Below, piece by piece: positions 51,025 to 59,265 of a DNA stretch of 64,000 nt; the first letter of the stretch is position 1; each line of letters begins with the position of its first letter. The stretch comes from a virus. The notes below the pieces were generated by a model. The model was not told where the DNA came from. It saw only the letters and a program-made list of their open reading frames with translations, and did no database searches. Location of the stretch: positions 1-64,000 of the IMG/VR virus record IMGVR_UViG_3300034110_000188. One strand, given 5' to 3'. A program made the position numbers and the translations under genes.

Positions 51025-51912
51025 TTAATCAATAAATGCTATTTCTTTTTCAGTTTTATTTCTATCCACTAAATCGTTAATACCGCACATCCCGTTACAT
51101 TCAAAAAGTGGCTCTACTTTCCTTAACGGAATATCATCTAGGCATTTGTTATTAGGATAGTCTGGATGCTTAATAAGGAATACAAGAATATCTTTTTTAT
51201 TCTTCTTATACTTTTCTTTTGCTTCATTCGATTGGTCCTTCAGCATTGCTACTGGCTCTCCTTTTAAGTCAGTTAATTCATGTTCTAAATCAGCCATGAC
51301 TTTAAATTTATCTGGAAATTCTTTCTGCATTTTTTGCCAATAGCCAATTCCACCCTGCACGCATCCAGTAGAGAAACAATTATTATTTTGAAAACCTAAT
51401 TTATACATTTCTGGTATTTCAATATTAGCTTCAGTAACTATATCTATGCAATCCTTTTTATCTAGACCAAGCATTAATAATGGATATATAGCTTTTACTC
51501 TTTCTCCATGATTCATTGTCATTGATAATGCTCTGTTGAATTCTTTCTTATCAAATTCAAAACCGAACACTTGGTGAGTATAATCAGGATTATTTTTCTC
51601 CCACTTCTCACGAACTAATCTCTTCAAATTAGTAGAGCAAATAGCTCCAGTAGCGGTATTCAATGATTTGTGTTTTCTCCACACATCGAATATGTTACCG
51701 TACTTTTCTCCAATACCTGTAATTATTTCTATTGGTAGACCATACCAATTTTCGCAATCCTTTTTGAATCTATAAGTATCTGGGTGTTCATTCTCAGTAT
51801 CAATCATAATTACTCGAACTCTCCCCCCCCCATATATTTCTATTGATTTCTTGCATGCTACAGCTGAAGTTACTCCTCCTGACCACCATGCTATAATGTC
51901 TTTATTTTTCAT
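51025..51912 (-). CDS. PP-loop ATPase, PAPS-reductase-like
   Basis: A 295 aa protein of the adenine-nucleotide alpha-hydrolase family. The PP-loop is SGGVTSAVA (11-19). VIMIDTENEHPDT (35-47) follows, as in PAPS reductases and DndC. Cys92 (AICSTNLKR), CFSTGC (179-184), VQGGIGYW and a C-terminal CNGMC may bind a metal or Fe-S cluster. It could act in sulfur transfer, DNA modification or nucleotide metabolism; the substrate cannot be read from sequence. A run of nine G codes for Gly28-30. Codons are more AT-rich than in flanking nuclease genes, hinting at separate origin. Confidence 0.75.
   Translation of the reverse strand: MKNKDIIAWWSGGVTSAVACKKSIEIYGGGRVRVIMIDTENEHPDTYRFKKDCENWYGLPIEIITGIGEKYGNIFDVWRKHKSLNTATGAICSTNLKRLVREKWEKNNPDYTHQVFGFEFDKKEFNRALSMTMNHGERVKAIYPLLMLGLDKKDCIDIVTEANIEIPEMYKLGFQNNNCFSTGCVQGGIGYWQKMQKEFPDKFKVMADLEHELTDLKGEPVAMLKDQSNEAKEKYKKNKKDILVFLIKHPDYPNNKCLDDIPLRKVEPLFECNGMCGINDLVDRNKTEKEIAFID
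51833..51841. repeat. Nine-base C homopolymer inside coding sequence
   Basis: C9 on the plus strand, G9 in the coding strand of the PP-loop ATPase gene, spanning codons 28-30. Slippage would truncate or restore the enzyme. Confidence 0.8.
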
Positions 51913-53947: not shown

Positions 53948-56326
53948 CTAAAAACTTAATTGTTTGTCATCTAATCTGATGAATTTAATTGTTTTGCCTG
54001 CTGAGTTACGTGACGTTACTGGTTGGTTTCCTGTGAAGTAAACTCCGTAGCTATCTAGCCATCTGTAGAACCTTGCTTGAGGTAAGTTGTATCTACCATA
54101 CCTACCGTAGTCAGGATATTTCTCAGTGAAGTCGTTGTACATGTCAGTCATCTGGTACTGAGCGTTAGCTGTATTTGTTCTGTGGTTCTCTTTGTCTGTA
54201 CACCACTCGTAGAACTCGAAGCACGTATCAGCAATAAACTTACGCGCCTTGATGTTACGGAACTCAGCCTTAAGTAGTCCAGACTGAAGGTACCTCATTA
54301 GGCAACCAATCATGTAGTTGTCGAACCTGTTCCACTCATCTTTGTCCCACTCAACGAAAAGTTGTCGTTTGAACTCATCCTGTGGCGTGTGGTTGCGGTT
54401 GAAGTACTGTCTGAACTCAATCTCCCACTTACGTCGCTCGAATGAATTACCGCTACCTTTAATCGCGTAGTTTGTAGTGATTACAATCTTTGGACTCTGC
54501 TCGAATGGAACCTTGATCGCGTCACGGTTCTTCTTCTCAAGTGTAATTCCCTGCGTAATTATACTGAATAGTCGCTCAAAATCAAAATTTTTCACAACAT
54601 CATCATACACAAGTATTTGCGTGTCTGCCGATACAGTTTGGTACGGGAACGTCTTGTCAAACTTAAAGTCCTTACCGTCAATATCAACGAGGCGCTTGAT
54701 TTTAGCTACAGCTGTAAAGAACAAACCTTTACCTGTCCCTCCCTCTGGATTCTCTGAAATCTTCTCATCGTTAATAATCACAGCTGGACAGTACGAAGCT
54801 GGCTTGTATCCATGCAATAAGAATCCTACAGTTGACTCAAGTGATTTTTTTGACTCATCGTTACCGCTCACAAGCTTCACGAAGTTCTTAAAGTCACACT
54901 CATCCGTCTCTGATGGCACGTAATCTCTATCGATGATCTGCTTGCTCCACACAAATCCGCTAAGGTCAATGTAGTCAATTGGTTGTATCTCAGTTGGTGT
55001 GATCTTAAGCGCACAGTTTCTAAAGTAGATAAAGCTCTCAGATACTGAGTCAACAACAAACTTCGGGTCGAGTCTGTCAAGTAGCGACAAGAAATCTTCC
55101 TTAAAGTAACGCGTCTTATCCGCAAAGTAGTTATAGATTGACTTGTTCTCAAGCTTATCCAAGTAGTCTAACGTGAATACCTTGATGTCATCTTCCGTAG
55201 CATCGTCAATTAAGTTATTCTGAATGCGAACAAACACGAACTTATCTGATCCTGCATGGTAGTACTTATAGAACCCGTTCTCCTGTAGAAACTTCTTGAA
55301 CAGGTGATGCACTGGCGATACGACACCTTTGCTGTTTATGCTCCAGAACTCATCCTCACTGTTCAGTTCAATGATGTGCTCAATTACTTTCTTCACTTCG
55401 TTCTTGTCACCTTTCGATACGTACTCAATGATACTATCGATTGGTTTACCTTGCTTCACGTCACGTTTAATCGCGTCAAGTCGCTCAGTATCTTCGTAGA
55501 ACTTAGTGTTGTGTATGTGAGTCTGTTTGTATGCTGACTCTACTGTAGTCTTAATCTCCACCCAAGGGAAATCCTTTTGCTCGAACTGACGTACAATAAC
55601 CTTACACATGTCCTCTGATATACCAAACTCATTCATAGCCTGGCACAGTACGTATAGGTTGTGGTTGCGAGATCCGTCTACTAAACCGAACTTCGCTTCC
55701 CACCACACGAGTAGTCTGCGTGAGATTTCGTCTGTCTCCTCTAGCTTAAGTGTAGGAACCGTATCAACGATACTTAACTGCTCGTACTTCTCTGTAGGTA
55801 AGCTATCCCAAAGTGCAGAGAATTCATTTACATAAATGTCTGGGTCATATGATTCGTAACATACACGAGATATGTCCTTTGTTGTCTTATCAAATTCAGC
55901 ACAAGCGTAGTACTCTTCAAGTGCTGCAAAGTATTGTTTGTGATTTTCTATTGACGGAGGTATTCTAACAACTAGTTTTAGTCCGTCGTTGCTTGGAGAT
56001 ATGAAGCAAGCAAATGTGTACTTGTCTTCAGATAACTCTTCTTTCTTTTTGTCTCGTAACTTATTATTCTTGAATCCATCGAAGTCAAGACATATAAATC
56101 CCGAGTGTTGCTCAATTGCTTTTGCCTCACGTCTAAGAAACTTACCTGAGAAACATATCGCAGGTAGGTCCTTCTTTAGTTCGTTTCGGTCTGACTTCTC
56201 ACCCTTGTCTCGGATACGCTCAACGAGTTCCTTTGACGCACCATTTCTAATGCGTTCAAACTCCTCGAGTATATCCCTGAAGAATGGAGTGCTTGTCTCC
56301 TTAATATTCTTAAATACAGTTATCAT
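53948..56326 (-). CDS. Primase-helicase (BT4734/VirE-type)
   Basis: A 792 aa replication protein. The N-terminal domain has SGKFLRREAKAIEQHSGFICLDFDGF (given by parts; DFD at 81-83) and FACFISPSNDGLKLVVRI, the BT4734/VirE-N primase-like signature with catalytic acidic pair and GLK motif. A primase-C-terminal helical region follows. The helicase domain has P-loop EGGTGKG (about 526-532), Walker B ILVYDDV, and the sensor ITTNYAIKG. It would prime and unwind DNA at the phage fork. It has no ORF interruption. Confidence 0.85.
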   Translation of the reverse strand: MITVFKNIKETSTPFFRDILEEFERIRNGASKELVERIRDKGEKSDRNELKKDLPAICFSGKFLRREAKAIEQHSGFICLDFDGFKNNKLRDKKKEELSEDKYTFACFISPSNDGLKLVVRIPPSIENHKQYFAALEEYYACAEFDKTTKDISRVCYESYDPDIYVNEFSALWDSLPTEKYEQLSIVDTVPTLKLEETDEISRRLLVWWEAKFGLVDGSRNHNLYVLCQAMNEFGISEDMCKVIVRQFEQKDFPWVEIKTTVESAYKQTHIHNTKFYEDTERLDAIKRDVKQGKPIDSIIEYVSKGDKNEVKKVIEHIIELNSEDEFWSINSKGVVSPVHHLFKKFLQENGFYKYYHAGSDKFVFVRIQNNLIDDATEDDIKVFTLDYLDKLENKSIYNYFADKTRYFKEDFLSLLDRLDPKFVVDSVSESFIYFRNCALKITPTEIQPIDYIDLSGFVWSKQIIDRDYVPSETDECDFKNFVKLVSGNDESKKSLESTVGFLLHGYKPASYCPAVIINDEKISENPEGGTGKGLFFTAVAKIKRLVDIDGKDFKFDKTFPYQTVSADTQILVYDDVVKNFDFERLFSIITQGITLEKKNRDAIKVPFEQSPKIVITTNYAIKGSGNSFERRKWEIEFRQYFNRNHTPQDEFKRQLFVEWDKDEWNRFDNYMIGCLMRYLQSGLLKAEFRNIKARKFIADTCFEFYEWCTDKENHRTNTANAQYQMTDMYNDFTEKYPDYGRYGRYNLPQARFYRWLDSYGVYFTGNQPVTSRNSAGKTIKFIRLDDKQLSF

Positions 56327-56329
56327 AAT

Positions 56330-56509
56330 TTAACTTCCGCAATATAAACAACCGTCCTCATCGTCATCTAACTCTGGGTTAGTTTCGATCTCTGGGTTGA
56401 GCTGTTTCTTTAATTCATAAATCTGTTGCATTATCTCTCCATCCTTGAAGATATCACCCGTAAGTTTTGATTTTAGCTTTTCAATTTCATCTTTATTTGG
56501 TTGTTTCAT
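56330..56509 (-). CDS. Hypothetical 59 aa acidic protein
   Basis: A short helical protein ending in an acidic stretch PELDDDEDGCLYCGS with CxxC at the C-terminus (residues 54-57), which could bind a metal. The start overlaps the end of the upstream gene through the repeated junction sequence. Family unknown. Confidence 0.55.
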   Translation of the reverse strand: MKQPNKDEIEKLKSKLTGDIFKDGEIMQQIYELKKQLNPEIETNPELDDDEDGCLYCGS

Positions 56510-56661
56510 TGTTCTTGTTGTTTAAGTTCTTCTATTAACTCTAAAAATTCTTTTAATGGTAATTTACCCGTTTTAACCCATTCATAAATTAATTTATACT
56601 TTTCTGAATTAAGGCTCAAAGCATTTAGTTTTTCTGTTCTGTCAATTTTTGTTTGTGTCAT
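56506..56661 (-). CDS. Hypothetical 51 aa protein with KQQEQ tail
   Basis: A small helical protein (MTQTKIDRTEKLNALSLNSEKYKLIYEW by parts). Its last five codons (KQQEQ) and stop are contributed by a 19 bp repeat that also holds the next gene's start. AT-rich codons. No family recognised. Confidence 0.5.
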   Translation of the reverse strand: MTQTKIDRTEKLNALSLNSEKYKLIYEWVKTGKLPLKEFLELIEELKQQEQ

Positions 56662-56903
56662 TGTTCTTGTTGTTTAGTTATTTCTAATTCAGAAAGTAAA
56701 GAATCTGCAAATTGCACGGATAAAATAGGCAATTGTTTAAGAATATTTTCAGTTATTAAAGCATTTGAGCAACTTGCTAACAACCCTTGCATTGCTAATC
56801 CTGCAAAGTATTCACGTTTTGTTAAACCTTTAGAATACTCTTGAACTTCTCCACTATGTGTGTAAACTAAATGTGGATTTATTGGTTCGTTTTCGTTTTT
56901 CAT
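56658..56903 (-). CDS. Hypothetical 81 aa protein with KQQEQ tail
   Basis: A protein with LTKREYFAGLAMQGLLAS (about 27-44), a short motif seen in small Bacteroidota phage and prophage proteins. The last residues (ITKQQEQ) come from the shared junction repeat. Predicted helical and soluble. Role unknown. Confidence 0.6.
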   Translation of the reverse strand: MKNENEPINPHLVYTHSGEVQEYSKGLTKREYFAGLAMQGLLASCSNALITENILKQLPILSVQFADSLLSELEITKQQEQ

Positions 56904-57046
56904 TGTTCTTGTTGTTTAAGGATAAAGGCTAATACTATTGATACTAAAAAAATAGTTCCACCTAATCCTTGATTAATTACTGCACCAATGTATAATCCGA
57001 AAAACATTACTACTACTATCATTAATGCTATTATATCTTTTCCCAT
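56900..57046 (-). CDS. Small two-TM membrane protein with KQQEQ tail
   Basis: A 48 aa, very hydrophobic protein (IIALMIVVVMFFGLYIGAVI, then GGTIFLVSIVLAFIL) with two predicted membrane helices and the shared KQQEQ end. It could be an early membrane-active peptide. The start codon is preceded by an 18 bp sequence also found before the gene at 57299. Confidence 0.55.
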   Translation of the reverse strand: MGKDIIALMIVVVMFFGLYIGAVINQGLGGTIFLVSIVLAFILKQQEQ

Positions 57047-57047
57047 C

Positions 57048-57299
57048 TTATTCTGATTTAAGTTGTCCTAATCTTGAATTTATAAGTTTATGTAATCTTA
57101 CATGGTCATCTTTTTTACCTAAAAAAAACGCAAGATTTACATCATCTTCACTAAACCCTTTCTGTTGCTTTTCCATTTCCAACTTTGCATAAGCCAAGCA
57201 CAAACAATCTTCAATTGCTTTAAATGAACCCGTGTAAAGTTTTGTTTCTTTGAGTTGTTCCATTTCTGAAATCAATTCCCGTACTGCTGTTTGTTTCAT
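57048..57299 (-). CDS. Hypothetical 83 aa protein
   Basis: A charged helical protein (MKQTAVRELISEMEQLKE...). The MKQTAV start and SFKAIEDCLCLAYAKLEMEKQQK block occur in small phage proteins of Bacteroidota, with no assigned role. It sits in the cluster of tiny genes with repeated junctions. Confidence 0.55.
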   Translation of the reverse strand: MKQTAVRELISEMEQLKETKLYTGSFKAIEDCLCLAYAKLEMEKQQKGFSEDDVNLAFFLGKKDDHVRLHKLINSRLGQLKSE

Positions 57300-57310
57300 C
57301 TTATTCTGAT

Positions 57311-57511
57311 TTAAAAGTTAAATAATACTGCTAAAAGTGTAACAGATAAAAGTATTGTGCTAATCATGTAAAATTTATACATTCTTTCATACTTTTTTAA
57401 TTCTTTTCCTATTTCTGTGATTTCAATATCTGTTATAGGTCTTCCTCTTTGTTCTTCCCTATTTTTTTTGATATATTCATTAAGCATTTTTTTTGTTTTT
57501 ATTAATTTCAT
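57311..57511 (-). CDS. Small C-terminal TM protein
   Basis: A 66 aa protein with a basic helical start (MKLIKTKKMLNEYIKKNREEQ) and a C-terminal membrane helix (about 46-66, FYMISTILLSVTLLAVLFNF), i.e. a tail-anchored topology. Its start lies in a copy of the 19 bp junction repeat. Role unknown. Confidence 0.55.
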   Translation of the reverse strand: MKLIKTKKMLNEYIKKNREEQRGRPITDIEITEIGKELKKYERMYKFYMISTILLSVTLLAVLFNF

Positions 57512-57861
57512 TGTTCTTGTTGTTTAGTTATACTTTTATGTTGTTCAATTGTTATAGATGTTTGTTTAACCACACAAACTCTATCGCTCGATCCAAATGG
57601 GAGCAAGTAGTGAGCGTCAAATGACTCACTGAATAGTACGCTTGTGTCGTGGTTATCTAATACGTTTAACTCATCAAAGTTCGCTACTGTGTACTTAACG
57701 TTGTCGCTAATCACTATCCAACCTTCTTTGGTGTATAGCGCGCGACCAAATAAAAAGGGGAGATTATCTCTCCCCACTTTACTCTTAGAATGGAGGCTCA
57801 GCATCTGATACAGTTGCTTCAACTCTGAATGCGTCAAGCGTGTTGAAGTACTTAACTTCAC
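57508..57861 (-). CDS. Hypothetical protein with KQQEQ tail; start uncertain
   Basis: The frame is open for 117 codons, but its first 25 lie inside the OB-fold protein gene. A later ATG at 57804 gives about 98 residues. The conserved-looking part is FGRALYTKEGWIVISDNVKYTV and FSESFDAHYLLPF. A terminator-like hairpin (57757-57775) lies within the frame, before this part. The tail is again KQQEQ from the 19 bp repeat. Function is unknown. Confidence 0.5.
   Translation of the reverse strand: MKLSTSTRLTHSELKQLYQMLSLHSKSKVGRDNLPFLFGRALYTKEGWIVISDNVKYTVANFDELNVLDNHDTSVLFSESFDAHYLLPFGSSDRVCVVKQTSITIEQHKSITKQQEQ
57747..57775 (-). terminator. Minus-strand rho-independent terminator
   Basis: On the minus strand GGGGAGA, loop GATAA, TCTCCCC (57775-57757) is followed by TTTTTATTT. 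It comes 10 nt after the stop of the OB-fold gene. It also falls inside the long frame of the downstream 117-codon ORF. Confidence 0.75.
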
Positions 57862-58090
57862 CGTCTTTTGGACTAACCCACTCGCGCCCTTTCAAACCGA
57901 AAGAAATCTCGCACTCATCACCTTCTTTAACTCCGTCAAGTAACGTAACGTTTTTTTGCGATAACTGGAACGAGACAAGTTGCTCGTAGTTACCATCTTG
58001 AATTGACAATACAAACTCTCTCTTTGAGAATTTATCTGACACTTGTACAGTGTCTCCCTTAACTTTAAGGGTTCCTTGAACTTTAAACAT
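57785..58090 (-). CDS. DUF3127-like OB-fold protein (SSB-like)
   Basis: A 101 aa protein from the ATG at 58090. It has KFSKREFVLSIQDGNYEQLVSFQLSQ (by parts) and VTLLDGVKEGDECEISFGLKGREW. This is the DUF3127 signature, an OB-fold family of Bacteroidota and their phages thought to bind single-stranded DNA. The end is acidic/hydrophobic (DAEPPF), like the tail of bacterial SSB. The ATG at 58090 overlaps the upstream stop by 8 nt; a longer in-frame start would lie within that gene. Confidence 0.8.
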   Translation of the reverse strand: MFKVQGTLKVKGDTVQVSDKFSKREFVLSIQDGNYEQLVSFQLSQKNVTLLDGVKEGDECEISFGLKGREWVSPKDGEVKYFNTLDAFRVEATVSDAEPPF

Positions 58091-58808
58091 TGAACTTTGA
58101 TTTATATTCGTAATAGTATTCTGACGCAAGTTTACCTTTAGCGTCAAACATTTTTATATCTTCTTCTGTTAATTCTACATCAAACGACGCAACACGTAAC
58201 TCCAACGGTAAGTCACCACATTCGTGCAACGATAAGTCTTCGTATGCTGGTATCAATTCCTCTGGAGTATCTACCAATACATACGCAACTTTACCTTTAG
58301 TCCAGCCTTTCATATAGAGGTAGCATTTCACTTGCCACTCGTACTGAGCATTCTTTGGGTCCTTGTAGTGCTTAATGAAACTCTTCTTGTCTGTAGCTGT
58401 CTTGATATCGATAATCATTTCATTATCGTAGTCAATTATATCTGGGTGACCCGTCCAAAACTCTGTACTTAACTCTTCGTCAGACTTTACAAAGTTAGTA
58501 AACCAAAGTGAATTAACAATACCTATTGACTCATCTTCGCACATAGTTCCTTTCTGAGTTCTATAGCTACTGAACGACGAAGTATATTGCCATATCTCAG
58601 CATCAACCGACTCTTCGATGAAAGACTTAGCACCAGGAGTAAGCTCTATTTGTGCGTCGCGTTTCTTAATCAACTCGTCTCTAGTCTCTGCTTGCTTATC
58701 AGTTAGCTTAATCTTCATCATCAACTCATTCAACGTGCGATGTTGAGCTTCAGTCAATCCATGACTACCAGCCATGATTGAGTACGCACTACTTGCTCTG
58801 GACTTCAT
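58083..58808 (-). CDS. YqaJ/lambda-exonuclease-type PD-(D/E)xK nuclease
   Basis: A 241 aa nuclease. After a helical start the catalytic core shows E91 (QKGTMCEDES), D123 in TGHPDIIDYDNE, D134-I-K136 in MIIDIKTATD, and Q-x-x-x-Y in YEWQVKCYLYM. This is the order of viral recombinases that resect double-strand ends. It adjoins an OB-fold protein and a conserved partner, consistent with a phage recombination module. Confidence 0.82.
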   Translation of the reverse strand: MKSRASSAYSIMAGSHGLTEAQHRTLNELMMKIKLTDKQAETRDELIKKRDAQIELTPGAKSFIEESVDAEIWQYTSSFSSYRTQKGTMCEDESIGIVNSLWFTNFVKSDEELSTEFWTGHPDIIDYDNEMIIDIKTATDKKSFIKHYKDPKNAQYEWQVKCYLYMKGWTKGKVAYVLVDTPEELIPAYEDLSLHECGDLPLELRVASFDVELTEEDIKMFDAKGKLASEYYYEYKSKFNV

Positions 58809-59265
58809 CTAATTGTTTGATTTGTTCGTCAGTTAATATTCTTGTGCTAAGGATTTGTTCCTTAGTCCACGTCCCGTCTTGTACAGCCTTGATCGCTTTA
58901 GGGAAGTCCTTGTCGCTGATTGGTGTCTTACGTGGCGCAGGTTTGTCGCGCTTAACTCTAATTGCGTCAACCATGTCGCCGTCCTGTACCGAGCGTACCT
59001 TAGCTGTTATCAACTCGATTTCCTTACCGACCCACTTAGTAAAGTCAGGTGTACCAACCGCACTTGCAATTGCCTTCATGTTAGTTGAGTTAGCCATAAG
59101 AGGTTTAGGTAAGTCACTAAACTCAATTACAATTTTCTCAACACCTTGTAGCTCAGAAATTTTCTTCTTGCTAACTGATTTTATTTTACCAATCAAGCTA
59201 CCACCTGTTGGCACGTCCCATGCACCTAAGTACGGTGATGGCATTAATTCTCTCCAATGATTCAT
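58789..59265 (-). CDS. Conserved phage protein of recombination/replication module
   Basis: A 158 aa protein. I chose the ATG at 59265 (MNHWRELMPSPYLGAWD), because upstream in-frame residues look non-coding and overlap another gene. The pattern PSPYLGAWDVP, then KPLMANSTNMKAIASAVG, then WVGKEIELITAKV is found in a phage family next to exonucleases and SSBs. No catalytic motif is visible; single-strand annealing or SSB-like function is possible. It overlaps the exonuclease gene by 20 nt. Confidence 0.65.
   Translation of the reverse strand: MNHWRELMPSPYLGAWDVPTGGSLIGKIKSVSKKKISELQGVEKIVIEFSDLPKPLMANSTNMKAIASAVGTPDFTKWVGKEIELITAKVRSVQDGDMVDAIRVKRDKPAPRKTPISDKDFPKAIKAVQDGTWTKEQILSTRILTDEQIKQLDEVQSK

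Follow-up and report, generated by a model that had tools for sequence, protein, structure and literature searches.

Why should a phage join several unrelated small genes by one and the same short sequence? The question is raised by the IMG/VR record IMGVR_UViG_3300034110_000188, of whose 66,954 bases positions 1–64,000 constitute the stretch of DNA analyzed here (the window). Four exact copies of the 19-mer TAAACAACAAGAACAATGA, which we call the type A junction, lie on its minus strand, each closing one open reading frame and opening the next, just as the first-pass annotation of this DNA had described. No further exact copies were found in the 66,954-base record outside the island of small genes that holds these four, and 0.14 matches at up to three mismatches would be expected in shuffled sequence. 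At every copy the preceding frame closes with KQQEQ and TGA, and the next ATG overlaps that stop (ATGA). The four preceding proteins align convincingly with one another at KQQEQ only, which bears out the claim that they are otherwise unrelated.

Organization of the island in the window

The virion genes of the record, including those for the terminase, portal, and tail fibre, are on the plus strand and its replication genes on the minus strand. The island sits between the gene for a single-strand DNA binding protein (phrog_4932, DUF3127; 57785–58090) and that for a primase with a BT4734-like N-terminal domain and DUF5906 (53948–56326), the first core gene past the island. Upstream of the single-strand-binding protein are an exonuclease gene (phrog_5715, with a weak RecE-like match; 58083–58808) and a gene for a 157-aa OB-fold-like protein (58789–59262) at the position that Erf occupies in other phages; all of these genes, and all features of the island given below, are on the minus strand. 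The phage also carries a gene resembling phosphoadenosine phosphosulfate reductase (51025–51912).

Read along the minus strand, the left-edge gene (57508–57801) is conserved in sister phages as far as the junction; its true start is uncertain because its frame crosses a terminator-like hairpin with a T tract (57757–57775), located between the single-strand-binding protein gene and the first island gene. Junction A copy 1 (57508–57526) opens cassette 1 (57311–57511; 66 aa with a putative membrane segment), for which no relative was found among the fetched loci. A second, 18-bp junction had been reported to occur twice nearby, and both copies are confirmed: this type B junction, TTAAATCAGAATAAGATG in the window and given as the allele AAATCAGAATAAGATG, lies at 57297–57314 and 57044–57061, between copies of the 19-mer. 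At the first of these the upstream gene stops at the junction's own first TAA, and the C-terminal tail is hence not constant. Cassette 2 (57048–57299; 83 aa), a divergent member of the TAVEW family with the C-terminus KSE, separates the two type B copies. It is followed by cassette 3 (56900–57046; 48 aa, hydrophobic), junction A copy 2 (56900–56918), cassette 4 (56658–56903; 81 aa, phrog_2201-like and of unknown function, with relatives in L054, L140, L101, and L088), junction A copy 3 (56658–56676), cassette 5 (56506–56661; 51 aa), and junction A copy 4 (56506–56524), cassettes 3 to 5 each ending in KQQEQ. The right-edge gene (56330–56509; 59 aa) has a body that is conserved in sister phages and an N-terminus that differs. 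Promoter-like sites, sought for the sigma-70 type only, do not exceed shuffled expectation in the island, the sole terminator-like site falls outside the array, and the junction has no match in Rfam.

Three sister contigs are available for comparison, with primase proteins 99% (L138 and L139) and 91% (L140) identical to that of the window phage. The DNA flanking the island matches the window at 95% on the primase side and 90–96% on the other side in L138 and L139, and at about 82% in L140. Homology to L139 breaks off at about 57,528, 1–2 bases before junction A copy 1, and is picked up again near position 56,512, within copy 4; these two copies form the left and right edges of the variable island. 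The cassettes between the first and last junctions differ among the sisters, and most have no relative in them. At the left edge the window carries type A, L139 type B, and L138 an A/B hybrid, AAATCAGAACAATGA; at the right edge both L138 and L139 carry a shortened form, TTTAAACAATGA. Type B is a second junction allele of the same kind as type A. Both motifs are absent from the stretches fetched for marine-type relatives of the primase (about 50% identity).

Exchange of one-gene cassettes at the junction

Numerous other viral contigs likewise have the 19-mer, a repeated asymmetric element found in one orientation at the starts of unrelated non-structural genes, between their genes, with a gene order that differs from copy to copy; a comparison of gene order had been proposed in the first-pass annotation. 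At least 120 IMG/VR stretches contain the exact sequence, many of them with two to five copies, against one IMG/VR match for a reversed-letter control. Type B occurs at at least 120 viral loci and ranked as the second most promiscuous 16-mer in a search made without prior choice. Carrier phages can have essentially unrelated cores, and the 19-mer is not confined to the lineage of the window phage: in a whole-record comparison, the window phage (G000) shares one open reading frame of at least 90 aa with G007 and four with G005. Neither outcome that would have refuted the earlier reading was obtained, since the repeat is not absent from other phages and whole-gene duplication is not its explanation; duplication as the origin of the window copies was rejected because the four proteins are unrelated.

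The bacterial and archaeal genomes (257 billion bases, 84,980 species) hold 12 copies of the 19-mer, single and in one genome each, and it is present in 1 of 397 genomes of one family. All five copies in Bacteroidota genomes (L130, L131, L132, L134, and L136) are at an open gene start, while none of the seven in other genomes stands ahead of a long open reading frame, which marks it as a viral element in the start-site language of Bacteroidota. Most of the N-termini encoded behind the Bacteroidota-genome copies resemble signal peptides. A bacterial or prophage origin of the 19-mer was rejected on the grounds that bacterial genomes contain only scattered single copies. The carriers are uncultured phages that most likely infect Bacteroidota, their hosts being inferred. 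A megablast search of the region against named phages gave no match, and the 18-base core was not found in print in the literature searched.

Where, then, do the genomes of different carriers diverge? When contigs are aligned with one another, the alignment stops at the junction 16–24 times more often than a uniform distribution would give. Seventy-nine junction pairs match at 95% or more on one side and at less than 50% on the other (over 80 bp), and 24 pairs are identical on both sides. Among gene starts at least 90% identical, after removal of duplicates, the upstream DNA was unrelated for 53 of the 57 pairs located at the motif, compared with 201 of 556 at control starts; the mirror (reverse) test gave 58 of 65 at the motif and 84 of 385 in controls, and near-identical starts with unrelated upstream DNA at type B amounted to 15 of 19 (controls, 85 of 225). 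Matches run 0–7 bases past the 18-mer, the shared tracts are mostly 80–330 bp, or about one gene, and shuffled junction pairs fall between different metagenomes by 39 to 2. Junction pairs are not independent, so the argument rests on ratios rather than p-values; most contigs are fragments. Control gene starts also break (36%), and gene boundaries are thus breakpoints in general. These comparisons show that many phages have exchanged one-gene cassettes whose limits are the junctions. Together with the turnover of island content among the sister phages, the breaks at the motif's edges support the earlier idea of a reusable gene-linking module with cassette shuffling, of which the homologous mechanism remains an inference.

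The pool of exchanged genes is large and mostly anonymous. In our sample, 316 distinct cassette proteins (median 66 aa) fall into 145 families, with 105 singletons; nearly all those scanned have no known function, and one is a thioredoxin. Differences between related cassettes are distributed as 605 at third, 319 at first, and 168 at second codon positions, a bias indicating that the cassettes are real genes. The same thioredoxin-like cassette lies behind the 19-mer with different upstream DNA in L003 (reverse strand, behind the second junction) and in L013:1727–1975. In L001:11557–12426, two cassettes are tandemly duplicated and the boundaries of the duplication are at junctions. Elsewhere two junctions follow each other directly, or with just a very short gene separating them, resembling scars of cassette loss (L094:95–135, L079:4340–4383, L048, and L016), in the orders B then A, A variant then B, and A then A.

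Many arrays are headed by a conserved leader, about AAGGATAAGGGGTAAAAATTGCCACATATCTTAAAACGAAATGTAA (for example L002:4845–4910, L023:4310–4354 on the reverse strand, L067:100–145, and some 30 other loci). Its hairpin core is inverted, with the orientation of the flanks kept, in L031, L042, L050, L066, L090, L096, and L105; the leader hairpin is absent from the window. The commonest cassette family, TAVEW, has halves that are swapped at CAAGCCAAAGAAATGGAGAAGGAG, with 21 gene pairs in which one half is at least 85% and the other less than 60% identical; half-swaps are seen, for instance, between L036 and both L041 and L042, and between L100 and L304. The CAAGCCAAAGAAATGGAGAAGGAG core lies within a long predicted helix, and its Ala codon is GCC in 100 of the 114 genes, whereas GCC accounts for 11% of all Ala codons. 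In L007:4338 and L104:4791 an MKTAVEW start is fused to an unrelated membrane protein, suggesting a crossover within the first codons. The family is also found in Flavobacterium elemo phages, and the elemo phage stretch examined is without junctions.

Start site, recombination site, or artefact

What keeps one sequence in front of so many unrelated genes? Type A has A at −3, −6, −12, and −13 relative to the start and no SD sequence, and As at these positions have been shown to raise translation in Flavobacterium johnsoniae (PMC6847099). There is essentially no folding in the junction region (mean MFE −0.29 versus −2.08 kcal/mol, at similar GC), and an SD-like core is present at just 1% of the other gene starts in the carrier contigs. 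The features of an A-rich (Kozak-like) Bacteroidota start, namely the A positions, the lack of an SD sequence, and low structure, are therefore met; the proposal that the junction provides an A-rich translation start holds as far as these features go, and that it works in translation is only inferred.

It is conceivable, though in our judgment rather unlikely, that translation is the whole explanation, the best start site for the host having been selected gene by gene and the shuffling being the usual mosaicism at gene boundaries. The A-rich, unstructured start is in keeping with this, and among variants of the 19-mer the As are conserved and the C/G positions freer; copies in Bacteroidota genomes are located at gene starts, and control starts break too, but the breaks in question fall at the motif's edges. 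Moreover, hosts do not converge on the 19-mer, given how few bacterial and archaeal copies there are (12 single copies in 84,980 species, 1 of 397 genomes of the family), and type B is a different sequence in the same use. Exact copies also outnumber altered ones (183, against 39 with one change and 16 with two), a comparison biased by the choice of loci for carrying an exact copy.

An unrecognized recombinase or transposase acting on the junction in integron-like fashion seems to us less plausible still. A constant short site in one orientation, one-gene cassettes, and arrays that reach five copies, often headed by the leader element, are what such an enzyme might leave behind; yet no tyrosine recombinase (PF00589, 0 of 25 records, with positive controls, the fragmentary contigs limiting the result) and no serine recombinase was found in 25 records, and the motif has no inverted repeat. 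Exchange takes place not only at type A but also at type B, at the A/B hybrid, and at an unrelated short sequence inside the TAVEW gene. From this variety of unrelated short joints we infer that generic homology fits better than a site-specific enzyme.

All our data are contigs from metagenomes, and assemblers could have joined unrelated phages at a repeated sequence such as the junction. We consider such an artefact very improbable: identical combinations recur across different metagenomes (nine junction pairs), three independent sister contigs have both flanks 95–96% (or 82%) identical around the differing island, and the cassettes have the codon-position bias of real genes (605:319:168).

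The 19-mer is a DNA or RNA element, and its KQQEQ tail is incidental because constraint acts on the nucleic acid. Among 183 distinct exact copies, a long open KQQEQ frame lies upstream of 90, a stop at the motif's TAA is found in 30, and 63 have neither. Where a copy departs from the 19-mer at one or two bases, the altered bases are at first, second, and third positions of the KQQEQ codons in 43, 9, and 8 cases. The shared tail pointed out by the first-pass annotation is real at all four window copies but is no general trait, about half of the copies being without the frame. A function of the tail itself, for example as a degradation or binding tag on many small proteins, can be set aside almost entirely, for while four of four window copies are in the KQQEQ frame, 93 of the 183 distinct copies have no long open one upstream, changes fall on first (43) and not third (8) codon positions, and type B yields KSE. 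KQQEQ as a selected peptide was rejected on these frame counts and codon positions.

A proposed mechanism and its precedents

We think it quite probable that the junction is an optimal start site for Bacteroidota and at the same time supplies the homology by which an exonuclease and an annealing protein exchange one-gene cassettes in Bacteroidota phages. Its stop codons and unstructured A-rich start should allow the small gene behind it to be translated, strong translation being an inference. Because identical bases occur in many phages, the junction is a short homology as well. A phage exonuclease would process DNA ends, and an Erf-type or analogous single-strand annealing protein would anneal them at the junction, so that cassettes joined exactly there could be gained, lost, duplicated, or swapped one gene at a time. 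Types A and B would be interchangeable junction alleles in the early-gene island of an uncultured phage pool.

The identity of the recombining enzymes is inferred from gene context. A homologue of the window phage's exonuclease lies no more than 1.7 kb upstream of the array in 55 of the 57 loci having one, and 50 of 53 loci have an Erf-family annealing protein at a distance of 0.84–2.3 kb upstream, without exception on the same strand for both; the two are encoded together in many carriers, and Pfam confirms the Erf family in 11 of the 25 records. RecT was found in none of the 25. In the record of the window phage itself, both Erf and RecT (PF04404, PF03837) are absent. Its 157-aa protein has a predicted OB-like fold with a helical tail, and a structure search returned weak single-strand-binding-like matches only; it is merely a positional analogue of Erf, leaving the window phage without a recognized annealing protein. 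The proximity of the island to the exonuclease and Erf genes could merely reflect early-gene order. Relaxed homologous recombination driven by an Erf/exonuclease pair has been demonstrated (PMC3945230), and with such a pair just upstream of many arrays it is the likely machinery; the measurements there used longer stretches of homology, either identical or diverged, whereas the junction offers some 18–27 exact bases. For annealing proteins, a homology of 18–27 bp lies toward the short end of the range, and no experiment stands behind the model.

How does the junction compare with known systems? The boundary or linker sequences of lambdoid phages are short, conserved, and located at gene boundaries, and have been proposed to guide the recombination of cassettes. 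Each is, to our knowledge, specific to one gene boundary, whereas a single junction sequence links numerous unrelated genes and recurs in the same genome. Integrons are arrays of one-gene cassettes drawn from a shared pool by the tyrosine recombinase IntI at a structured attC site. Junction arrays resemble them in their one-gene cassettes, shared pool, and frequent leader, but no integrase was found in the records searched and there is no attC-like structured site, the junction region being essentially unfolded.

Promoter early stem-loops (PeSLs) of T4-type phages are short, repeated, intergenic regulatory sequences that mediate gene shuffling between related phages, and are composite motifs of an early promoter and a stem-loop terminator (PMC4503421, citing Arbiol 2010 and Comeau 2014). 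The shuffling of small genes is common to both systems. The junction, unlike the PeSL, has no recognizable promoter or terminator, is a 16–19-bp stop/start overlap with a translation start, and is near-invariant across unrelated phage cores. The start-associated sequences (SAS/ESAS) of cluster K mycobacteriophages are short asymmetric repeats at the starts of non-structural genes, mostly in one orientation, that precede gene families with no relation to one another; an inverted repeat lies upstream of some of them (PMC3203893). The SAS is a 13-bp sequence, GGGATAGGAGCCC, with an SD core, 3–7 bp ahead of the start. It is found where the gaps between genes are larger, hardly occurs outside one phage cluster, and has no exchange reported for it in the section consulted (PMC3203893). 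An asymmetric repeat in one orientation at unrelated non-structural gene starts is common to SAS and junction, but the junction differs in sequence, has no SD core, and overlaps the start codon; its genes overlap, and their exchange is documented.

The junction belongs with PeSLs, SAS, and lambdoid boundary sequences, but lacks defining features of PeSLs and of SAS. The first-pass annotation knew of no named system of this type; the junction is indeed a distinct variant, but one with these three precedents. It differs from them as one near-invariant stop/start overlap common to unrelated phages and repeated within genomes.

What is the relevance of such a junction? We speculate, with the case evenly poised, that a few near-invariant alleles, whose identity we infer to be kept because they permit exchange, act as a counterpart of the integron that relies on homology and needs no integrase, and through which Bacteroidota phages draw one-gene early cassettes and TAVEW half-genes from a common pool. 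If true, the junction would be an assembly standard common to unrelated phages. Phage mosaicism is usually viewed as the product of illegitimate or relaxed recombination events that are rare and on which selection then acts. The junction is a short, defined sequence that can be recognized in raw contigs, and it marks sites at which single small genes have been exchanged, also between phages with unrelated cores. With it, the many early proteins that are still unknown can be searched for, rates of exchange can be measured, and the idea that a shared start site drives gene flow between phages becomes directly testable.
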